Shown here in pieces: positions 10,719 through 20,296 of a DNA stretch of 37,994 nt (positions within the stretch are counted from its first letter, which is position 1; each line of letters starts with the position of its first letter). The notes beneath the pieces are model-generated. The model did no database searches. It was not told the DNA's origin and was given only the letters and a program-made list of their open reading frames with translations. Origin of the DNA: Ilumatobacteraceae bacterium (GTDB lineage: Bacteria > Actinomycetota > Acidimicrobiia > Acidimicrobiales > Ilumatobacteraceae); the NCBI GenBank assembly GCA_016463105.1, contig JAEMRY010000002.1, positions 18,799 through 56,792 on the forward strand, written 5' to 3'. The position numbers and the translations under genes are program-made.

Positions 10719-11585
10719 GTGGCTGACATTCTGTTGATTACTGGGCTTTCCGGCGCAGGACGGTCGCAGGCCGCCGATGACCTTGAAGACCTCGGCTGGT
10801 TCGTTGTTGACAACATGCCGACTGAATTGATCGACAAGGTTGTCGAGATTGCGTCGGTGGGCTCGACATTGTCAAAACTTGCATTGGTCGTTGGCACTAC
10901 AACTGCTCAGCGAAACGTGATAGATGTTTTAAAAAAACTCAGGCTCACCAGTCACCGTGTTCGGTTGTTGTACTTAGATGCGACGACAGCCGAGTTGGTT
11001 AAGCGATATGGTGCGACACGACGAAAGCATCCGCTGGCAGTAGACCACTTGGGTGTCGAGCAGGCAATTGCACAAGAACGTGTTCTGCTTGAAACAGTCA
11101 AAGGTGAAGCCGATTTAGTTATTGATACTTCTAATCTCACAGTGCATCAACTTAAATCGAAGATCGGTGAAATATTCGCTGCCGGCGATCAAGGCGACAC
11201 GATGCAGGTTTCGGTTGTCTCATTCGGTTATAAACATGGCTTGCCAACTGATGTCGATCTTGTTTTTGATGTCCGTTTTTTGCCGAACCCACACTGGGAT
11301 GAAAAACTAAGGCCCTTCACAGGTCTTGAAGCACCCGTGCGTGATTACGTGATGTCACACGAAGTCTCGCGTTCGTTTCTCGCTCAATTATTTGCGATGT
11401 TGACGACGCTATTGCCGGCTTACAAAGCAGAAGGTAAAAGTTATTTAACGATTGCCATTGGTTGTACAGGTGGACATCATCGGTCGGTTGTAATTGCCGA
11501 GCAAATTGTTCAGTGGCTGACCGACAACGAGCAACACCCAAGGGTTACTCATCGCGACATTCTGCGGGTCGACTCTGGGCACTAA
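10719..11585 (+). CDS. rapZ: RNase adapter/nucleotide-binding protein RapZ (YvcJ family)
   Basis: GTG start; LLITGLSGAGRSQAADDLEDLGWFVVDNMP, VVSFGYKHGLPTDVDLVFDVRFLPNPHW, IAIGCTGGHHRSV. Confidence 0.94.
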   Translation: MADILLITGLSGAGRSQAADDLEDLGWFVVDNMPTELIDKVVEIASVGSTLSKLALVVGTTTAQRNVIDVLKKLRLTSHRVRLLYLDATTAELVKRYGATRRKHPLAVDHLGVEQAIAQERVLLETVKGEADLVIDTSNLTVHQLKSKIGEIFAAGDQGDTMQVSVVSFGYKHGLPTDVDLVFDVRFLPNPHWDEKLRPFTGLEAPVRDYVMSHEVSRSFLAQLFAMLTTLLPAYKAEGKSYLTIAIGCTGGHHRSVVIAEQIVQWLTDNEQHPRVTHRDILRVDSGH

Positions 11586-11594
11586 GGTTTGGGC

Positions 11595-12605
11595 ATGACA
11601 ATTCGCGTAGGAATCAACGGCTTTGGCCGAATCGGTAGAAATTTTTATCGTGCAATAAAACAAACTGGTCAAGATATAGAAATTGTTGCGGTCAATGATT
11701 TGGGTTCGCTCAAGACAATGGCGCATCTTCTTAAATACGACTCAGTATTAGGTGTATTGCCAAATACGATTTTTGCTACTGATGACGGAATCAGCATTGA
11801 CGGCAAAATTCTTAAAGTTCTGTCAAAGCGTGACCCAAAAGATTTGGGCTGGGGCGATCTGGGTGTAGATCTCGTGATTGAATCCACAGGGTTTTTTACA
11901 GATCGCGATAAAGCCTCGGCTCACTTAGAAGCAGGGGCACCGTGTGTGATTATCTCTGCGCCCGCCACCAATGCTGATGCAACTTTTGTGTACGGCGTCA
12001 ACCACCAAGATTTTGATCCAAAAAATCACAAAGTAGTTTCGAATGCCAGTTGCACTACGAATTGTTTTGTGCCGATGGTCAAAGTTTTGGATGATGCATT
12101 TGGCGTCGAAAATGGTCTGATGACTACGATCCATGCATACACAGGTGATCAGTCTTTAGTAGACGGGCCGCACAGTGATTTGCGTCGAGCAAGGGCTGCG
12201 GCGATAAATATTATTCCGACTAGTACTGGCGCGGCACGAGCAACAAGTCTGGTGATGCAATCAATGAAGGGCAAACTTGACGGAACATCTTTGCGTGTTC
12301 CCGTGCCGACGGGGTCGATTACTGATCTTGTTGCAAACTTAAAAAAACCAGCGTCAGTTGCCGAAATTAATTCGGCGTTTAAGGCTGCGGCAACTGGTCC
12401 ACTTAAAAATATTCTCGAATATTGCACCGACCCAATTGTTTCTAGCGATGTTGTGACTAATCCTCATAGTTGCGTGTTTGACAGTGACTTGACAATGAGT
12501 ATGGGTTCTCTGGTCAAGGTCTTGGGTTGGTATGACAACGAATGGGGCTACTCGAATCGGCTCGTAGACATAACCGCGTTTATCGGGGCTGCACTCAAGC
12601 GCTAA
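11595..12605 (+). CDS. gap: Glyceraldehyde-3-phosphate dehydrogenase
   Basis: MTIRVGINGFGRIGRNFYRA, SNASCTTNCFVPMVKVL, WYDNEWGYSNRLVD. ATG at 11595 preferred over the TTG at 11589. Confidence 0.96.
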   Translation: MTIRVGINGFGRIGRNFYRAIKQTGQDIEIVAVNDLGSLKTMAHLLKYDSVLGVLPNTIFATDDGISIDGKILKVLSKRDPKDLGWGDLGVDLVIESTGFFTDRDKASAHLEAGAPCVIISAPATNADATFVYGVNHQDFDPKNHKVVSNASCTTNCFVPMVKVLDDAFGVENGLMTTIHAYTGDQSLVDGPHSDLRRARAAAINIIPTSTGAARATSLVMQSMKGKLDGTSLRVPVPTGSITDLVANLKKPASVAEINSAFKAAATGPLKNILEYCTDPIVSSDVVTNPHSCVFDSDLTMSMGSLVKVLGWYDNEWGYSNRLVDITAFIGAALKR

Positions 12606-13715
12606 ATGATTCCACATCTTGAAGATCTTGGTGACGTGCGCGGAAAAACCGCACTCGTGCGAACTGATTTTAATGTGCCAATGTCTGGGCCAGATTCGGC
12701 ACGAGTGATCACGGATGATTTTAGAATCAGGGCTGCACTTCCGACAATTAATTGGTTGACCGACCGTGGCGCAAAAGTTATTTGTGCGAGTCATTTAGGT
12801 CGGCCTAAAGGCGTCGTAAACATCAAATACTCAATGGCGCCAATTCGTGAGCGACTTGCCGAACTCGCACCGGGTGTCGAACTGCTTGAAAACTTGCGCT
12901 TTGATGCTGGCGAAGAATCAAACGATCCGGCATTTGTTGCGCAACTAATTAACGGTGTGGATCTGTATATTAACGATGCATTTGGTGCGGCTCACCGATC
13001 GCATGGGTCAATAGTTGGTCCACCAAAGACATTGCCGTCTGCTGCTGGACGTTTATTGCAACGCGAGGTTGAAGTGCTCGGTGAGATGCGCAAGAATCCG
13101 AAGCGTCCGTTAATTGCAGTATTGGGTGGTGCGAAAATTAGCGACAAACTTGGAGTAATTGAGGCACTAACTAGCATTGTTGATGCGTTTGTGATTGGCG
13201 GCGGCATGTGCTTCACGTTTCTAGCGGCAAAAGGTCTTCCAATCGGTGACTCGTTGTGTGAGAAAAATCAAATCGATGCATGCAAAAAACTTCTGGCAGG
13301 CAACGTGCCGATCCATCTTCCTGAAGACATTGTCGGTTTAGACGCAGATGGAAATTTCGCCACATTTGGGGTTCGACTTCCTGAACACGCAAAGGGTTTA
13401 GACATCGGTCCTGGAAGCGCAGCGGCTTTTGCCGACATCGTTATGTCAGCACGAAGCGTATTTTGGAATGGGCCGATGGGAATGTTCGAAGATGATCGAT
13501 TTGCCGCCGGAACACGAACTATTGCCCAAGCGATGTCAGAAACAAAAGCCTTCACAGTTGTTGGAGGGGGAGATTCTGCGGCGGCTCTCGCGCAATTTGG
13601 ATACGAAAAAGATGTTGATCACGTTTCTACTGGGGGTGGGGCATCATTAGAGTTTCTTGAACTCGGCGACTTGCCTGGATTAATAGCATTGCGAGGAGCA
13701 CCGAATGTCAAATGA
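12606..13715 (+). CDS. pgk: Phosphoglycerate kinase
   Basis: GKTALVRTDFNVP, ASHLGRPKG, VLGGAKISDKLGVIEAL, FWNGPMGMFE, VVGGGDSAAAL. ATG immediately follows the gap stop. Confidence 0.96.
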   Translation: MIPHLEDLGDVRGKTALVRTDFNVPMSGPDSARVITDDFRIRAALPTINWLTDRGAKVICASHLGRPKGVVNIKYSMAPIRERLAELAPGVELLENLRFDAGEESNDPAFVAQLINGVDLYINDAFGAAHRSHGSIVGPPKTLPSAAGRLLQREVEVLGEMRKNPKRPLIAVLGGAKISDKLGVIEALTSIVDAFVIGGGMCFTFLAAKGLPIGDSLCEKNQIDACKKLLAGNVPIHLPEDIVGLDADGNFATFGVRLPEHAKGLDIGPGSAAAFADIVMSARSVFWNGPMGMFEDDRFAAGTRTIAQAMSETKAFTVVGGGDSAAALAQFGYEKDVDHVSTGGGASLEFLELGDLPGLIALRGAPNVK

Positions 13716-14493
13716 AACTAGAAAGCCACTGATCAGCGGCAACTGGAAGATGAATCACAATCACTTCGAGGCCATTCAGTGCATTCAAAAACTTGCTTAC
13801 TTATTAACGAAAGACGATTTCGCTGCTGTTGATGTAACCATTCATCCGCCGTTTACTGATTTGCGAAGTGCGCAAACTTTAATCGATGCAGACGAGTTGC
13901 GATTTATTCTTGGCGCTCAACACTGTCATGAAGCCGATTCAGGCGCGTTCACAGGCGAAATTTCTGCGCAGTTCTTGGCGAAACTAAATGTGCGCTATGT
14001 AATAGTTGGTCACAGTGAGCGCCGCGAATTATTTGGCGAAACCGATGAAGTTGTGCAACAAAAATTAGTGTCGATTCAAAAACACAAAATGACGCCAATT
14101 CTGTGTGTCGGTGAAACTCTTAGCGATCGTGAAGCCGGGTTAACTCATGACAAGATTCTTGGGCAAGTTCGAACTGCATTGGCAAAACAATCAGTCGAAC
14201 AAGTTCGGTCGATGGTGATTGCGTATGAACCGATTTGGGCAATCGGAACTGGCAAGACCGCTACGGCCGATGATGCACAACGGGTGATTAGTGCGATTCG
14301 CCAAGAAGTTGCCAAAATCTCATCCAAGATGGCAGCCGAGGCGATTCGATTGCAATACGGTGGCAGCGTGAAGGCAAGCAATATCGGTGAGATTATGTCG
14401 CAACCTGATATTGACGGGGTTTTGGTCGGTGGCGCCAGCCTTGATTCGGCAGAGTTTGCTCGCATTTGCCAGTACCGGCTTAGAGCCAGCTAA
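13705..14493 (+). CDS. tpiA: Triosephosphate isomerase
   Basis: PLISGNWKMNHNHFEA, YVIVGHSERRELFGE, VIAYEPIWAIGTGKTA, LQYGGSVKASN, GVLVGGASLD. Overlaps pgk by 11 bp. Confidence 0.96.
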   Translation: MSNETRKPLISGNWKMNHNHFEAIQCIQKLAYLLTKDDFAAVDVTIHPPFTDLRSAQTLIDADELRFILGAQHCHEADSGAFTGEISAQFLAKLNVRYVIVGHSERRELFGETDEVVQQKLVSIQKHKMTPILCVGETLSDREAGLTHDKILGQVRTALAKQSVEQVRSMVIAYEPIWAIGTGKTATADDAQRVISAIRQEVAKISSKMAAEAIRLQYGGSVKASNIGEIMSQPDIDGVLVGGASLDSAEFARICQYRLRAS

Positions 14494-14496
14494 GTT

Positions 14497-14526
14497 TTGC
14501 CGCTGCCCGATAACTGTTAGTGTAAT
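14497..14526 (+). promoter_or_regulatory. Candidate sigma70-type promoter for the ABC transporter operon
   Basis: TTGCCG (14497-14502), 18 nt spacer, TGTAAT (14521-14526), upstream of the GTG at 14581. By eye only. Confidence 0.35.
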
Positions 14527-14545
14527 TCTATTACTAGGAGTCATT

Positions 14546-14577
14546 CCGACTTCTACCTAATTCGACGGGGAGGTCGG
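14546..14577 (+). promoter_or_regulatory. Candidate leader hairpin partly covering the Shine-Dalgarno of the solute-binding protein gene
   Basis: CCGACTTC (14546-14553) pairs with GAGGTCGG (14570-14577), 8 bp with one G.U. The right arm overlaps GGGGAGG (14567-14573), 7 nt before the GTG start. Confidence 0.4.
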
Positions 14578-14580
14578 AGA

Positions 14581-16326
14581 GTGAGAAAAACCACAAAAGT
14601 GGCTCGTCTTGCTGCAGCACTAGCAACTATTGCATTAATAGTTGCGGCGTGCGGTGGCAGCGATGCGGCTACAACAGACACAGTTGTTGATACAACTGCA
14701 CCAGAAGCAACACCAGTCAGTTATCCAACGAGTTTGGAAGATTGCGCAAATGTTACTTACGACTATGTCAAACCAGCAACTGTTGGTGGCATGACGATTA
14801 CATATGACATCAACCCTGCTGCAGTTTGGGAAGACGGGTCGCCAATTACGGCAGCCGACTTCGCCGCAACATGGGAAGCGTCATTGAACACACCAGGTTC
14901 GATTTCGACATCTGGTTATGACCAAGTGACAGCCGTAGCTGCCGGAACAAGTGACAAGCAAGTTGTTGTTACTATGAAAGCCGTTTACGCGCCGTGGCGT
15001 GGGTTGTTCGGTGCACTTATCAAGGCTGCTTCAGTCAAGAACACGAAAGATGTTTCTGCAGATTACGCAAACAACATTCCGTTCTCGGGACGTCCATACA
15101 AGATTAAGTCTTGGAGCCCAGATCAAGTTGTGTACGTGCCAAACGAGAATTATTGGGGCACTGACAAGGCTGTCACCAAGAAGTTCGTAATGGTGCCAAA
15201 GGCAGACAGCGACACAGAAATTGCAGCGCTTAAGGCTGGCGAAGTTGACTTCATTTACCCACAGTTCTTCGCAGGTATCGAAGAAGCGGTGAAGCAAGAC
15301 AACATTCAAACCAACCTTGACTACGGTGGCGACTACGAAGGTTTCTACTTCCAACAGAAGTGTGGACCTTTCGCAGATCCGAACTTCCGTGCAGCGTTCT
15401 CAATGTCAATTGATCGCGATGCATTGTTTCAGCAGATCTACATTCCACTCGGTGGAAAAGAATTGCTTCAGTGTGGCCCGATGGTGCCTGGACCGTATTG
15501 CAATGGCGACGAGTTCGCTAACGGCTACGACCCAGCAGCAGCAGAGGCTTTGTTGACCGAGAATGGTTGGACAAAGGGAACTGACGGCTACTGGGTTGAC
15601 CCAAGTGGCAAAGTTCCAGACATTCGTTGGATCATCAACACGGGCAACACTCGTCGAGAGAGCACACAGGCTTATTTGATTCCGTTGCTTAACGCATCAG
15701 GTTTCAAAGTGCGCGCAGACAACTGCGATGCCGCTTGTTACTTCCAGCAACGTCTGCCAGGTATGGACTATGACATGGCGATGTACATCAGTACAGCACC
15801 ACCAGATCCGGCTTACCTCACTGGTGGTTTCGCTTGCGACCTCATCCCAACTGAAGCCAATGGCAACATTGGTCAGAACAGTCAGGGTTGGTGCAACACT
15901 GAGGCGTCAGATTTGCTCTATGCAGCAGATGTTGATTCCGATGCAACGACTCGTGCAGACAAGGTCAAGCAGGTTCTTGCGCTTATGGCTCAAGATCATG
16001 TGATGTTGCCTTTGATGCAGTTCCCGAAGTCGGGTTTTGCTCGCACAGACAAGGTTGGCGGTCCATGGAACGCTGAACTCAACAACTACGCAGCATTCAA
16101 CAACATCCACCTTTGGACAGATGTTGACGGCGACGGACAAATTGTGCTCGGTGCCGAACAATGGCCAGAGTGTCTCAACCCAATCACTGAGTGTGCAAAC
16201 TCTTCGTGGATGGTTTGGACAACTGCATTCCAGGTAATGCCAGGTGCTTACGCAACTACCAATGATGGTAAGTACGTGATGACTAACCTGCTTGCTGGTG
16301 AAGCAAAGGTTGAAGTTAAGAGCTAA
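14581..16326 (+). CDS. Peptide-type ABC transporter solute-binding lipoprotein (SBP_bac_5 family), apparently circularly permuted
   Basis: Signal peptide and lipobox (IALIVAAC/GGS). SBP family 5 core (TYDINPAAVWEDGSPITAADFAATW, FRAAFSMSIDRDALFQQIY). The C-terminus carries GQIVLGAEQWPECLNPITECANSSWMVWTTAFQVMPGAY, normally an N-terminal segment. Followed by DppB/C/D/F-like genes. Confidence 0.92.
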   Translation: MRKTTKVARLAAALATIALIVAACGGSDAATTDTVVDTTAPEATPVSYPTSLEDCANVTYDYVKPATVGGMTITYDINPAAVWEDGSPITAADFAATWEASLNTPGSISTSGYDQVTAVAAGTSDKQVVVTMKAVYAPWRGLFGALIKAASVKNTKDVSADYANNIPFSGRPYKIKSWSPDQVVYVPNENYWGTDKAVTKKFVMVPKADSDTEIAALKAGEVDFIYPQFFAGIEEAVKQDNIQTNLDYGGDYEGFYFQQKCGPFADPNFRAAFSMSIDRDALFQQIYIPLGGKELLQCGPMVPGPYCNGDEFANGYDPAAAEALLTENGWTKGTDGYWVDPSGKVPDIRWIINTGNTRRESTQAYLIPLLNASGFKVRADNCDAACYFQQRLPGMDYDMAMYISTAPPDPAYLTGGFACDLIPTEANGNIGQNSQGWCNTEASDLLYAADVDSDATTRADKVKQVLALMAQDHVMLPLMQFPKSGFARTDKVGGPWNAELNNYAAFNNIHLWTDVDGDGQIVLGAEQWPECLNPITECANSSWMVWTTAFQVMPGAYATTNDGKYVMTNLLAGEAKVEVKS

Positions 16327-16350
16327 TTGCTCGAAACTAAGTAGTTCAAA

Positions 16351-16392
16351 ATAGGTGCGCCAATTCGACTTTTGTCGGGTTGGCGCACCTAT
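16351..16392 (+). terminator. Strong intercistronic hairpin (attenuator or 3'-end stabiliser) between solute-binding protein and permease genes
   Basis: ATAGGTGCGCCAATTCGAC / TTTT / GTCGGGTTGGCGCACCTAT: 19-bp stem (17 Watson-Crick, 2 G.U) with a UUUU loop. No strong T-tract immediately downstream (GTTATTTGTGTCGTTTTA). Confidence 0.7.
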
Positions 16393-16457
16393 GTTATTTG
16401 TGTCGTTTTATTTTGGAGAACCTTGTTTGTGGACTTGAAACAGTAAGAGAAGACACA

Positions 16458-17432
16458 GTGCTTCGCTATATTTTCCGCCGTCTGGCTTGGTCGATACCGA
16501 CTTTGTTGCTAGTGACATTCTTGGTTTACTTGGCTTTGCGAATCGGCACCAACCCTGTTGAAAGTTATAAACGAGTTAACCCGCGCGCAAGTCGCGCCAA
16601 AATTCAGCAGTACATCGACGTAAACGGCTTGGATCCAAATTTTGTACAGGGTTATTTTAAGTGGTTGAAGAATTTCATAACTGGCGATTGGGCACCCAGC
16701 ATCAAGGGGCGTCGCGAAGTTTGGCCCGCACTCAAAGATGCAATGGCTAATACTTTGCGTCTTGGCACTGCCGCTACGGTCGTCGGCATTTTCTTTGGAT
16801 TGATCTTCGGCGTTCTGGCTGCATTGCGCCCGGGCGGTAGGCGTGATGTCTTTATTAATACAAGTGCTTTCGTCGGCATTTCGATACCCCCGTTCATTAG
16901 TGCGATTTTATTGCAGTTGCTATTTGCTGTTTATTGGCAACGTTGGTTCGGATTTAGTTTGTTTCCAACATCTGGTGTCTACCCGGCAGGGCATACAGGC
17001 TTTGACTTGTTCCTGATGCTTAAGTTCATGGCTCTTCCGACAATTATTGTGGCGATTCAGGTTATTGCGACGTATAGCCGCTACATGCGTTCATCGCTTC
17101 TCGACGTCTTGAATTCTGACTACATGCGCACCGCACGCTCAAAGGGCATTAGTGAACGCCGTATATTAATTAAGCACGGCATGCGCAACGCGCTAATACC
17201 AGTTGTGACGATTGCTGCACTTGATGTTGGCTCGATCGTCGGTGGATTGATCATTACAGAAAATATTTTTTCGTACCCAGGCATGGGGCTCTATTTTTTG
17301 AAGTCGTTTGGTGAGGGCGACTTTCCGTTGCTCATGCCGTGGATGGTTGTAATTGTTGCGTCGATCCTGTTGTTCAATTTGATTGCAGACATTTCATATG
17401 CCTGGCTTGACCCAAGGATCCGCCTTGAGTGA
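16458..17432 (+). CDS. Peptide-type ABC transporter permease (DppB/OppB-like)
   Basis: LRYIFRRLAWSIPTLLLVTFLVYLAL; EAA-type motif YMRTARSKGISERRILIKHGMRNALIPV; IITENIFSYPGMG. GTG at 16458 preferred; the ORF-track start at 16380 lies inside the hairpin. Confidence 0.92.
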   Translation: MLRYIFRRLAWSIPTLLLVTFLVYLALRIGTNPVESYKRVNPRASRAKIQQYIDVNGLDPNFVQGYFKWLKNFITGDWAPSIKGRREVWPALKDAMANTLRLGTAATVVGIFFGLIFGVLAALRPGGRRDVFINTSAFVGISIPPFISAILLQLLFAVYWQRWFGFSLFPTSGVYPAGHTGFDLFLMLKFMALPTIIVAIQVIATYSRYMRSSLLDVLNSDYMRTARSKGISERRILIKHGMRNALIPVVTIAALDVGSIVGGLIITENIFSYPGMGLYFLKSFGEGDFPLLMPWMVVIVASILLFNLIADISYAWLDPRIRLE

Positions 17433-18345
17433 GCAAAATGAAAAAGACTTGTCGCCGCGACAGATGGCGCTTCGGCGGTTCGTCTCGCACAAAGCTGCCG
17501 TGGTTAGTTGCATCATCATCGGAGTTCTGGCACTGTTTGTAATTTTGGCACCATTCACAGCGCGATATGGCGTTAACCAATCTGTACAGGCACCACCGAA
17601 CTCGTTTCTTTCGCCCCGCAGCAACGCTTGGCTCGGCACAGACGACATTGGTCGTGATCTTTACAGTCGTTTGATTTATGGTGTTCGAGTCTCACTTTTG
17701 ATTGGGTTGGCGAGCGCAGTAATTTCTGTAACCCTGGGTGCCCTTGTCGGAGCAGTCGCAGGTTTTCGTGGTGGCAAATTTGACGACATCCTGATGCGTG
17801 TCACAGACCTGTTTTTGGCTTTCCCATTCCTGGTGACTTTGTTGGTCGTACGAAATGTTCTTGGTGGGTTGCCTTGGCTCAAACCTTTAACTGGTGAAAT
17901 GAACTCTGTTCGTTTCATTATTGTTTTGTTCAGTATCTTCGGCTGGATGGGTGTCGCTCGAATTGTGCGGGGCCAAGTTCTGTCGCTTAAGGAACGCGAA
18001 TTTGTTGAAGCCGCTCGAGCAGTTGGCGCGTCGCGTCGATACATCATCGCTCGTCACTTGCTGCCGAATTCTGTTGGTCCGATTATGGTGGCTCTGACCT
18101 TTTCGGTGGTGGGAGCAATTATTGGTGAATCAACTTTGGCCTTCTTCGGTTATGGACCTCAAGCAGGAGACGGCGCTACATCGCTCGGCATTTTGGTTGG
18201 TGCAGCCAAAGGGGCGGTACAAACTGGCTTTTGGTGGCTTGCTGTGTTTCCATGCTTTGTTTTGATCATTATCGCTTTGAGTATCAATTTCATCGGCGAT
18301 GCTTTGCGCGACGCAACCGACCCTCGTCTTGATCGAGGTGCATGA
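17425..18345 (+). CDS. Peptide-type ABC transporter permease (DppC/OppC-like)
   Basis: NAWLGTDDIGRDLYSRLIYGVRVSLLIG; EAARAVGASRRYIIARHLLPNSVGPIMV. A TTG at 17425 overlapping the upstream stop is the likely start. Confidence 0.91.
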   Translation: MSEQNEKDLSPRQMALRRFVSHKAAVVSCIIIGVLALFVILAPFTARYGVNQSVQAPPNSFLSPRSNAWLGTDDIGRDLYSRLIYGVRVSLLIGLASAVISVTLGALVGAVAGFRGGKFDDILMRVTDLFLAFPFLVTLLVVRNVLGGLPWLKPLTGEMNSVRFIIVLFSIFGWMGVARIVRGQVLSLKEREFVEAARAVGASRRYIIARHLLPNSVGPIMVALTFSVVGAIIGESTLAFFGYGPQAGDGATSLGILVGAAKGAVQTGFWWLAVFPCFVLIIIALSINFIGDALRDATDPRLDRGA

Positions 18346-19325
18346 TGTCTGAAAAAGTTTTAGAGATTAGAGATTTACGTGTCACATTTGATACGCCGTC
18401 TGGGCCGCTTGAAGCAGTACGCGGAGTCGACCTTGACGTTTCCGCGGGCGAACTTCTCGGTGTGGTGGGCGAATCTGGCTCGGGAAAGTCAGTGAGTTTC
18501 TTAGCGACGATGGGACTCTTGCCGGCCCGAGCGCGGGTTACCGGTTCAGTGTTATTGGCGGGTGAGCAGTTGATTGGCGCTTCAAACAAATATATGCGCT
18601 CTGTGCGCGGACGATTGCTGTCAATGATTTTTCAAGATCCACTTTCAGCGCTAAACCCGGTGCATCGAATCGGCAATCAGATTGCAGAGATGTTGCAGTC
18701 GCATCAAGACTTGAGCAAGCGCGACGCCGAAAAGCGGGCTATCGAACTTTTAGACATCGTCGGTATACCGCAACCGAGTGAGCGAGCGACACAATTTCCT
18801 CATGAATTTTCTGGTGGTATGCGCCAACGCGTTGTAATTGCAATCGCGATCGCAAATAACCCGAAGGTGTTGATTGCTGATGAACCAACGACGGCACTCG
18901 ACGTGACAGTTCAGGCCCAAATTCTTGAAGTGATTGAGCGAGTGCAAGAACGCTTTGGCACAGCTGTTGTGTTGATCACCCACGATCTGGGTGTGATTGC
19001 ACGCGTTGCCGACCGAGTAAATGTTATGTACGCGGGGCGAAACGTTGAACAGGGGACGATCGATAGTTTGTTCGATCACCCGAGCCATCCGTATACACGA
19101 GGCTTACTCGCATCTTTGCCGGGACCAGGCAAGCAACGGTTAAAGCCGATCACTGGGTTTCCGCCGAATATGTTGAACCCACCAAAGGGCTGTGCATTTC
19201 ACACGCGTTGTGAATACGCGGCTGAAATCTGCAAACTTGACTTACCAGAGTTGCAGACATTTGGAGATTTGCAGACTGCATGTGTGCGAGTCAAAGAGTT
19301 ACCAAAGGCTGAGATCAGAGTATGA
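18342..19325 (+). CDS. Peptide-type ABC transporter ATP-binding protein (DppD/OppD-like)
   Basis: Walker [54 protein letters not shown]-terminal cysteine-containing oligopeptide extension ([11 protein letters not shown]). Confidence 0.95.
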
Positions 19326-20296
19326 GCACTGAACTTCTTAGAGTTACTAATCTCGTAAAGCACTTTGAATTGAGAAACAACAAGAAGTCGGGTGGAAAAA
19401 AACGAATAGTGCAGGCGGTATCAAATGTTTCGTTTACATTAGATAAGGGTCAAACTCTCGGATTAGTTGGTGAATCCGGGTCTGGCAAAACCACGGTCGG
19501 CAGGTGCGTCTTGCGTCTGATAGAACCGACTTCGGGCAAAGTCGAATTTGACAGCCGTGATCTCGGAACTCTCAAGTTCGAAGAGATGCGAGCGATTCGA
19601 CGCAGGATGCAGATCGTATTTCAAGACCCGTTTGCATCACTCGACCCAAAAATGACAGTTGGTGCATCGATAGCAGAACCGCTGAAAGTTCAGAATGTGC
19701 CAGGCGACCACGGCGACAAGGTGATTGAACTTCTTGAACTTGTTGGACTAGCACCTGATCATGCCCAACGATTTCCGCATGAGTTTTCGGGCGGGCAACG
19801 ACAGCGAGTTGGTGTCGCTCGAGCCCTTGCGTTAAATCCAGATTTAATTGTGCTTGACGAACCGGTCTCTGCTCTTGATGTCAGCATTCAGGCAGGAATT
19901 GTGAATCTGTTTGAAGACTTGCAGAAGAAACTTGGAATGTCTTATTTGTTTATTGCTCACGACCTATCTGTGGTGCGACATATCGCAGATCGAGTTGCTG
20001 TTATGTATTTAGGCAAGGTAGTAGAAATTGGCGATCAAGAATCGATTTATGCGCATCCAACTCATCCGTATACAAAGGCGCTGCTATCGGCTGTGCCATT
20101 GCCTGATCCCACGACCGAGCGTTCACGAAATCGCATCATGCTCGAGGGTGATGTGCCTTCACCAATTAATCCGCCAACAGGTTGCCGCTTTCGCACGCGA
20201 TGCTGGAAAGCACAAGATGTTTGCGCACAAGAAGAGCCAGTGCTTTTAATTCGTCAGTCTGGGCAGATGTCTGCCTGCCATTTTCCTGAGTCCTGA
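19322..20296 (+). CDS. Peptide-type ABC transporter ATP-binding protein (DppF/OppF-like)
   Basis: [65 protein letters not shown] overlap with the upstream gene. Confidence 0.95.

Follow-up and report, generated by a model that had tools for sequence, protein, structure and literature searches.

Natural circular permutants of binding proteins seem to be rare. Among binding lipoproteins, the only natural permutant that we found in the open-access literature is TpMglB-2 (Tp0684) of Treponema pallidum, and none was found there for cluster C. TpMglB-2 is a cluster B lipoprotein that binds glucose and has its N lobe permuted. Together with its relatives it has been proposed as "Type Ic / Cluster Bc", and its authors raised the topology as a possible adaptation to membrane anchoring (PMC4990184). 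Cluster C proteins supply ABC permeases with peptides, metal chelates or sugars. Their N- and C-termini lie close together beside the sheet of domain I (PMC10924461). Two main models are considered for the origin of circular permutations in general, duplication and fission-fusion (PMC3320104).

The gene described here lies in a stretch of 37,994 nucleotides from an Ilumatobacteraceae bacterium, which was analysed as a whole and is called the window. The product of this gene is very probably the lipoprotein of an Opp-type importer and a genuine circular permutant of the cluster C (SBP_bac_5) fold that arose in nature. Sequence comparison shows that some 60 residues from the start of the canonical mature domain have been relocated to the C-terminus. 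A short junction, in most cases rich in Asp, connects them to the old C-terminus, and the turn between the two strands of a canonical beta-hairpin is the site of the new N-terminus. The solute-binding protein (SBP) shares the PF00496 family, the predicted fold and the Opp-type operon with OppA, DppA, NikA, EppA (6wm6) and Mtb OppA (Rv1280c). It differs from canonical cluster C proteins by a rotation of about 60 residues; their anchor lies ahead of the first strand, whereas its lipid tether would now be attached at the beta-hairpin.

With TpMglB-2, the SBP of the window has in common that a lipid-anchored ABC binding protein is naturally permuted, that the canonical N-terminus has its counterpart in the C-terminal part, and that the arrangement is conserved in a lineage. 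The two differ in fold (a cluster B sugar-binding fold in TpMglB-2) and in cut site, and represent separate events. Also, the permutation of TpMglB-2 was seen by crystal structure, with 13% identity in the moved part, whereas that of the window was seen by sequence, at 41–50%. Membership of PF00496 and structural matches to cluster C place the SBP outside the TpMglB-2 type. It is an independent case of permutation, in cluster C.

The locus and its context

The features of the locus are collected in Table 1. The gene order is rapZ-gap-pgk-tpi-SBP-oppBCDF, and a neighbourhood comparison shows that this locus is retained in many genomes with a permuted SBP. The V-A-A-C lipobox is conserved among the relatives.

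Table 1. Features of the permuted SBP and its operon (positions in the window; residue numbers refer to the SBP)
Feature	Position	Strand	Basis
SBP gene, GTG start, 581 aa, lipobox VAAC (C24)	14581..16326	+	ORF
Lipoprotein signal peptide, residues 1–24, lipidated Cys24 in V-A-A-C	14581..14652	+	direct from sequence
N-terminal linker, residues 25–66, fast evolving	14653..14778	+	dN/dS; segment profile
SBP core, residues 67–512	14779..16116	+	PF00496 2e-55, BLAST to L104/L105, core HMM
Junction DVDGDG, residues 514–519, old C-terminus to old N-terminus	16120..16137	+	alignment
Relocated canonical N-terminal segment, residues 520–581	16138..16323	+	canonical-segment HMM, L104/L105 identity
CLNPITECANSSWMVW, residues 531–546, Cys531/Cys538 and positions aligned to EppA cleft	16171..16218	+	alignments
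OppB-type permease, start codon approximate	16455..17432	+	PF00528 4e-37
OppC-type permease, start codon approximate	17404..18345	+	PF00528 and OppC_N
OppD-type ATPase	18342..19325	+	ABC_tran and oligo_HPY
OppF-type ATPase	19322..20296	+	ABC_tran and oligo_HPY
gap-pgk-tpi, conserved upstream neighbours	11589..14493	+	TIM by Pfam; gap/pgk by sequence; synteny

From rapZ through gap, pgk and tpi to the Opp importer (10719–20296), all genes lie on one strand, a neighbourhood that is conserved in the family. The association may hint at a link of central glycolysis genes with peptide uptake.

Evidence for the permuted order

The first-pass annotation had described a rotated SBP_bac_5 lipoprotein and expected two matches to PF00496. 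Only one was found, a single collinear match of residues 69–413 to profile positions 15–356, which at 188.9 bits lies well above the curated family cut-off of 32.4. The match is unbroken because the PF00496 model is centred on the middle part of the protein and includes hardly any of the moved segment, for which reason routine Pfam annotation hides the permutation.

The rotation itself was borne out by comparison with canonical homologues. The closest that were found are L104 and L105 from the same family and L147 from the same phylum, all of canonical order and 36–37% identical over the core; L104 stems from a complete one-contig genome. In BLAST against L104, residues 67–512 of the SBP align to 156–610 (37%) and residues 516–578 to 89–151 (41%, E 2.5e-12). 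Against L105, residues 71–512 align to 167–616 (37%) and 514–571 to 95–151 (50%, E 5.6e-12). The two pieces adjoin each other in the canonical protein and occur in swapped order in the window, jointly covering the fold of L104, as is characteristic of a circular permutation. The core (residues 67–512) runs from the second strand of the canonical hairpin to the canonical C-terminus. The first domain strand, which is N-terminal in the canonical order, is absent from that position and found at the C-terminus.

An HMM was built from the N-terminal segments of 21 canonical rows, leaving out that of the window. It matches the last ~60 residues of the SBP with an E-value of 9e-25. The same HMM found no canonical segment in the N-terminal linkers of any of the permuted proteins (best E 0.46), so that no canonical strand is left upstream in frame. 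When profiles of core and segment, both built from permuted rows, were applied separately to the tested loci, the segment always lay C-terminal of the core in permuted proteins and, wherever it was detected, N-terminal of it in canonical ones. The C-terminal ~65 residues, for which the first-pass annotation had considered a position outside the SBP fold, are thus homologous to the canonical N-terminal segment. We regard the permuted order as confirmed by these sequence comparisons. An unrelated C-terminal domain was rejected on account of the same matches and of the purifying selection described below.

Distribution and origin

A single ORF spanning core and tail occurs in 55 of the 150 sampled genomes of the family, distributed over 12 genera. 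In an order-wide sample (299 genomes), the only permuted proteins outside the family are L119 (family f47) and L121 (family f26), the remaining matches there ending near profile position 515. At the threshold used, a phylum-wide sample of 398 genomes contained permuted proteins only in the family of the window. The hosts are mostly freshwater actinobacteria, with several records from lakes, although not all sources are freshwater; near-identical records are labelled acIV, Ilumatobacteraceae or Acidimicrobiaceae. No relatives were found in a scan of viral contigs.

The expectation that homologues with a C-terminal tail form one clade held in a tree of 62 cores, where a branch with 100/100 support separates the 34 permuted proteins from all others, a single change of order. 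Since the canonical order is kept by homologues elsewhere, among them the matched relatives of solved structure, the permuted form is the derived one. It had a single origin, and selection has preserved it since.

An origin by duplication and truncation is plausible, and duplication followed by fusion and trimming would be the likeliest route. The junction resembles the acidic stretch before the first strand of canonical L105, which is suggestive only, such a leftover being what a downstream second copy would be expected to leave. The permutant could instead stem from gene pieces that were split and fused, and it is true that neither tandem nor both-sided intermediates, such as a duplicated precursor would represent, occur among 146 ORFs. 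We nevertheless consider this route unlikely, as the 60-residue segment was not seen as a gene of its own and a linker like that of L105 is expected from a full downstream copy.

Most permuted proteins have conserved the DxDGDG junction; the early-branching L109 and L119 lack it. While DVDGDG resembles the start of an EF-type loop, a Ca-binding domain was rejected, as neither EF-hand, dockerin nor any other Ca-binding family was matched in the SBP by Pfam at E-values up to 10.

Divergent binding proteins at the tpi locus

In G038, the close canonical relative L104 is located away from the tpi locus. At the tpi locus of this genome and of six others (G055, G019, G012, G010, G021 and G008; L181–L187), a divergent SBP with about 23–33% identity precedes oppBCDF. 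The permease is divergent at these loci too, while OppD and OppF are still 50–65% identical. By segment profile, the SBP at the tpi locus of G055 has canonical order, and the other six would be canonical as well, judging only from the N-terminal sequences of some of them.

OppB proteins of the permuted operons form one clade, the nearest being OppB of the closest canonical relatives, whereas OppD groups by locus. These quick trees suggest a possible exchange of SBP and permease at an old, fixed locus. An altered gene order was observed at the tpi locus of G025 (L191), where an OppC-like gene directly follows tpi and precedes a region with a weak match to the SBP core, after which homologues of OppB, OppD and OppF are found.

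Selection, ligand cleft and predicted structure

Ratios of dN/dS are about 0.04–0.12 for the core and, almost as low, about 0.05–0.16 for the tail, while those of the N-terminal linker are mostly 0.09–0.31. Strong purifying selection on both tail and core excludes a pseudogene, an unrelated tail and a chimera.

Within the moved segment, Cys531, Cys538 and Trp543 are invariant or nearly so in permuted and canonical forms alike. Residues N69, N70, A71, V72 and R74 of EppA are among those lining its ligand cleft (PMC7312458). A full-length canonical profile aligns the loop of the moved segment to these residues of 6wm6_A, their counterparts in the window being S541, S542, W543, M544 and W546. Judged from this alignment, the moved segment should be required for the ligand pocket. 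The link to solved structures was made via the full-length profile; a profile of the moved segment alone gave no match among PDB sequences, as the segment is too short and too divergent.

AlphaFold2 reached a pLDDT of only 59.5 with 27 close permuted rows, which increased to 81.5 (pTM 0.81) when distant canonical core rows were added, giving 34 rows. The tail is largely ordered in this model, with strands at 521–526, 557–559, 565–567 and 576–580; local pLDDT is about 95 for residues 571–580 and about 55 for 531–550. The predicted structure has the three-domain, bilobed fold of cluster C. Its best Foldseek matches are EppA (E 9e-30), Mtb OppA and LpqW, over about 470 columns with TM scores of about 0.65–0.70, in a sequential alignment that is uninformative on the placement of the tail.

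The tail, even if homologous, might be packed on a neighbouring molecule in a domain-swapped dimer or obligate oligomer, which a flexible junction would permit. We consider this very unlikely, because the old termini adjoin each other in this fold (PMC10924461) and only a very short junction links them, both of which favour packing in cis, and because the AlphaFold2 monomer is fairly confident. With the termini of cluster C proteins so close together, a short junction suffices. We favour a tail that would pack in cis, where the relocated segment would occupy its usual site and complete the ligand cleft.

Function

Since the gene sits in rapZ-gap-pgk-tpi-SBP-oppBCDF, transport is the likeliest function of the permuted SBP by operon context, with an oligopeptide probably the candidate ligand. 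The protein would then pass an oligopeptide-like ligand to OppBC.

It is hardly probable that the protein is instead a sensor which has lost its role as a transport receptor. Genus g13 retains the gene without adjacent opp genes, and L108 combines a permuted SBP with a probable membrane helix and an Hsp70/actin-like region. However, the SBP gene heads an intact oppBCDF in the window and in most of the relatives that were read, and OppB of the permuted operons is a single clade, just as the SBP is.

An artefact has a negligible probability. It would be either a misannotated frame or a chimera in which assembly or binning had joined two tandem SBP genes (a concern of the first-pass annotation, the window coming from a fragmented MAG of 1.49 Mb in 163 contigs that is 83% complete). 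It is excluded because single ORFs with this order occur in 55 sampled genomes that come from many assemblies, and because L119 and L121 of two other families share the order; in addition, the tail is under purifying selection and no second SBP gene was found beside that of the window.

Significance

For the permuted lipoprotein, canonical relatives are available, the origin is single and the operon is intact, so that the effects of tether position on ligand binding and on docking to the permease can be addressed directly. The break point is one that evolution has tolerated in the OppA/DppA fold, which is useful to engineers for biosensor design. As routine Pfam annotation is blind to the permutation, more permutants are possibly hidden.

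We also consider, as a rather doubtful reading, that the permutation was adaptive. Moving the tether off a strand and loop that form the cleft might free the lobe or reorient it toward the permease, and this would have happened independently in clusters B (TpMglB-2) and C, the permuted form being reused later as an orphan lipoprotein (g13) and, in L108, as the ectodomain of a membrane protein whose N-terminal region is Hsp70/actin-like.

Unusual permuted relatives

Genus g13 (L097–L103, L158, L159 and L167) possesses a divergent permuted SBP with about 29–34% identity, which is on a long branch (1.31) of the core tree. Where its context could be read, the gene is found behind gap-pgk-tpi without adjacent oppBCDF, and among the g13 genomes a close OppB was found only in G122. 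Perhaps this SBP is an orphan with a new role.

A different architecture is seen in L108 (1325–3703, minus strand) and also in L157 (G011:C29). This protein of ~792 residues has an Hsp70/actin-like N-terminal region (PF00012, 5.8e-5), followed by a probable membrane helix and then by the whole of a permuted SBP; opp genes were not matched nearby. Related N-terminal regions (about 27–36% identity) occur in long open frames in 25 of the 150 genomes of the family.
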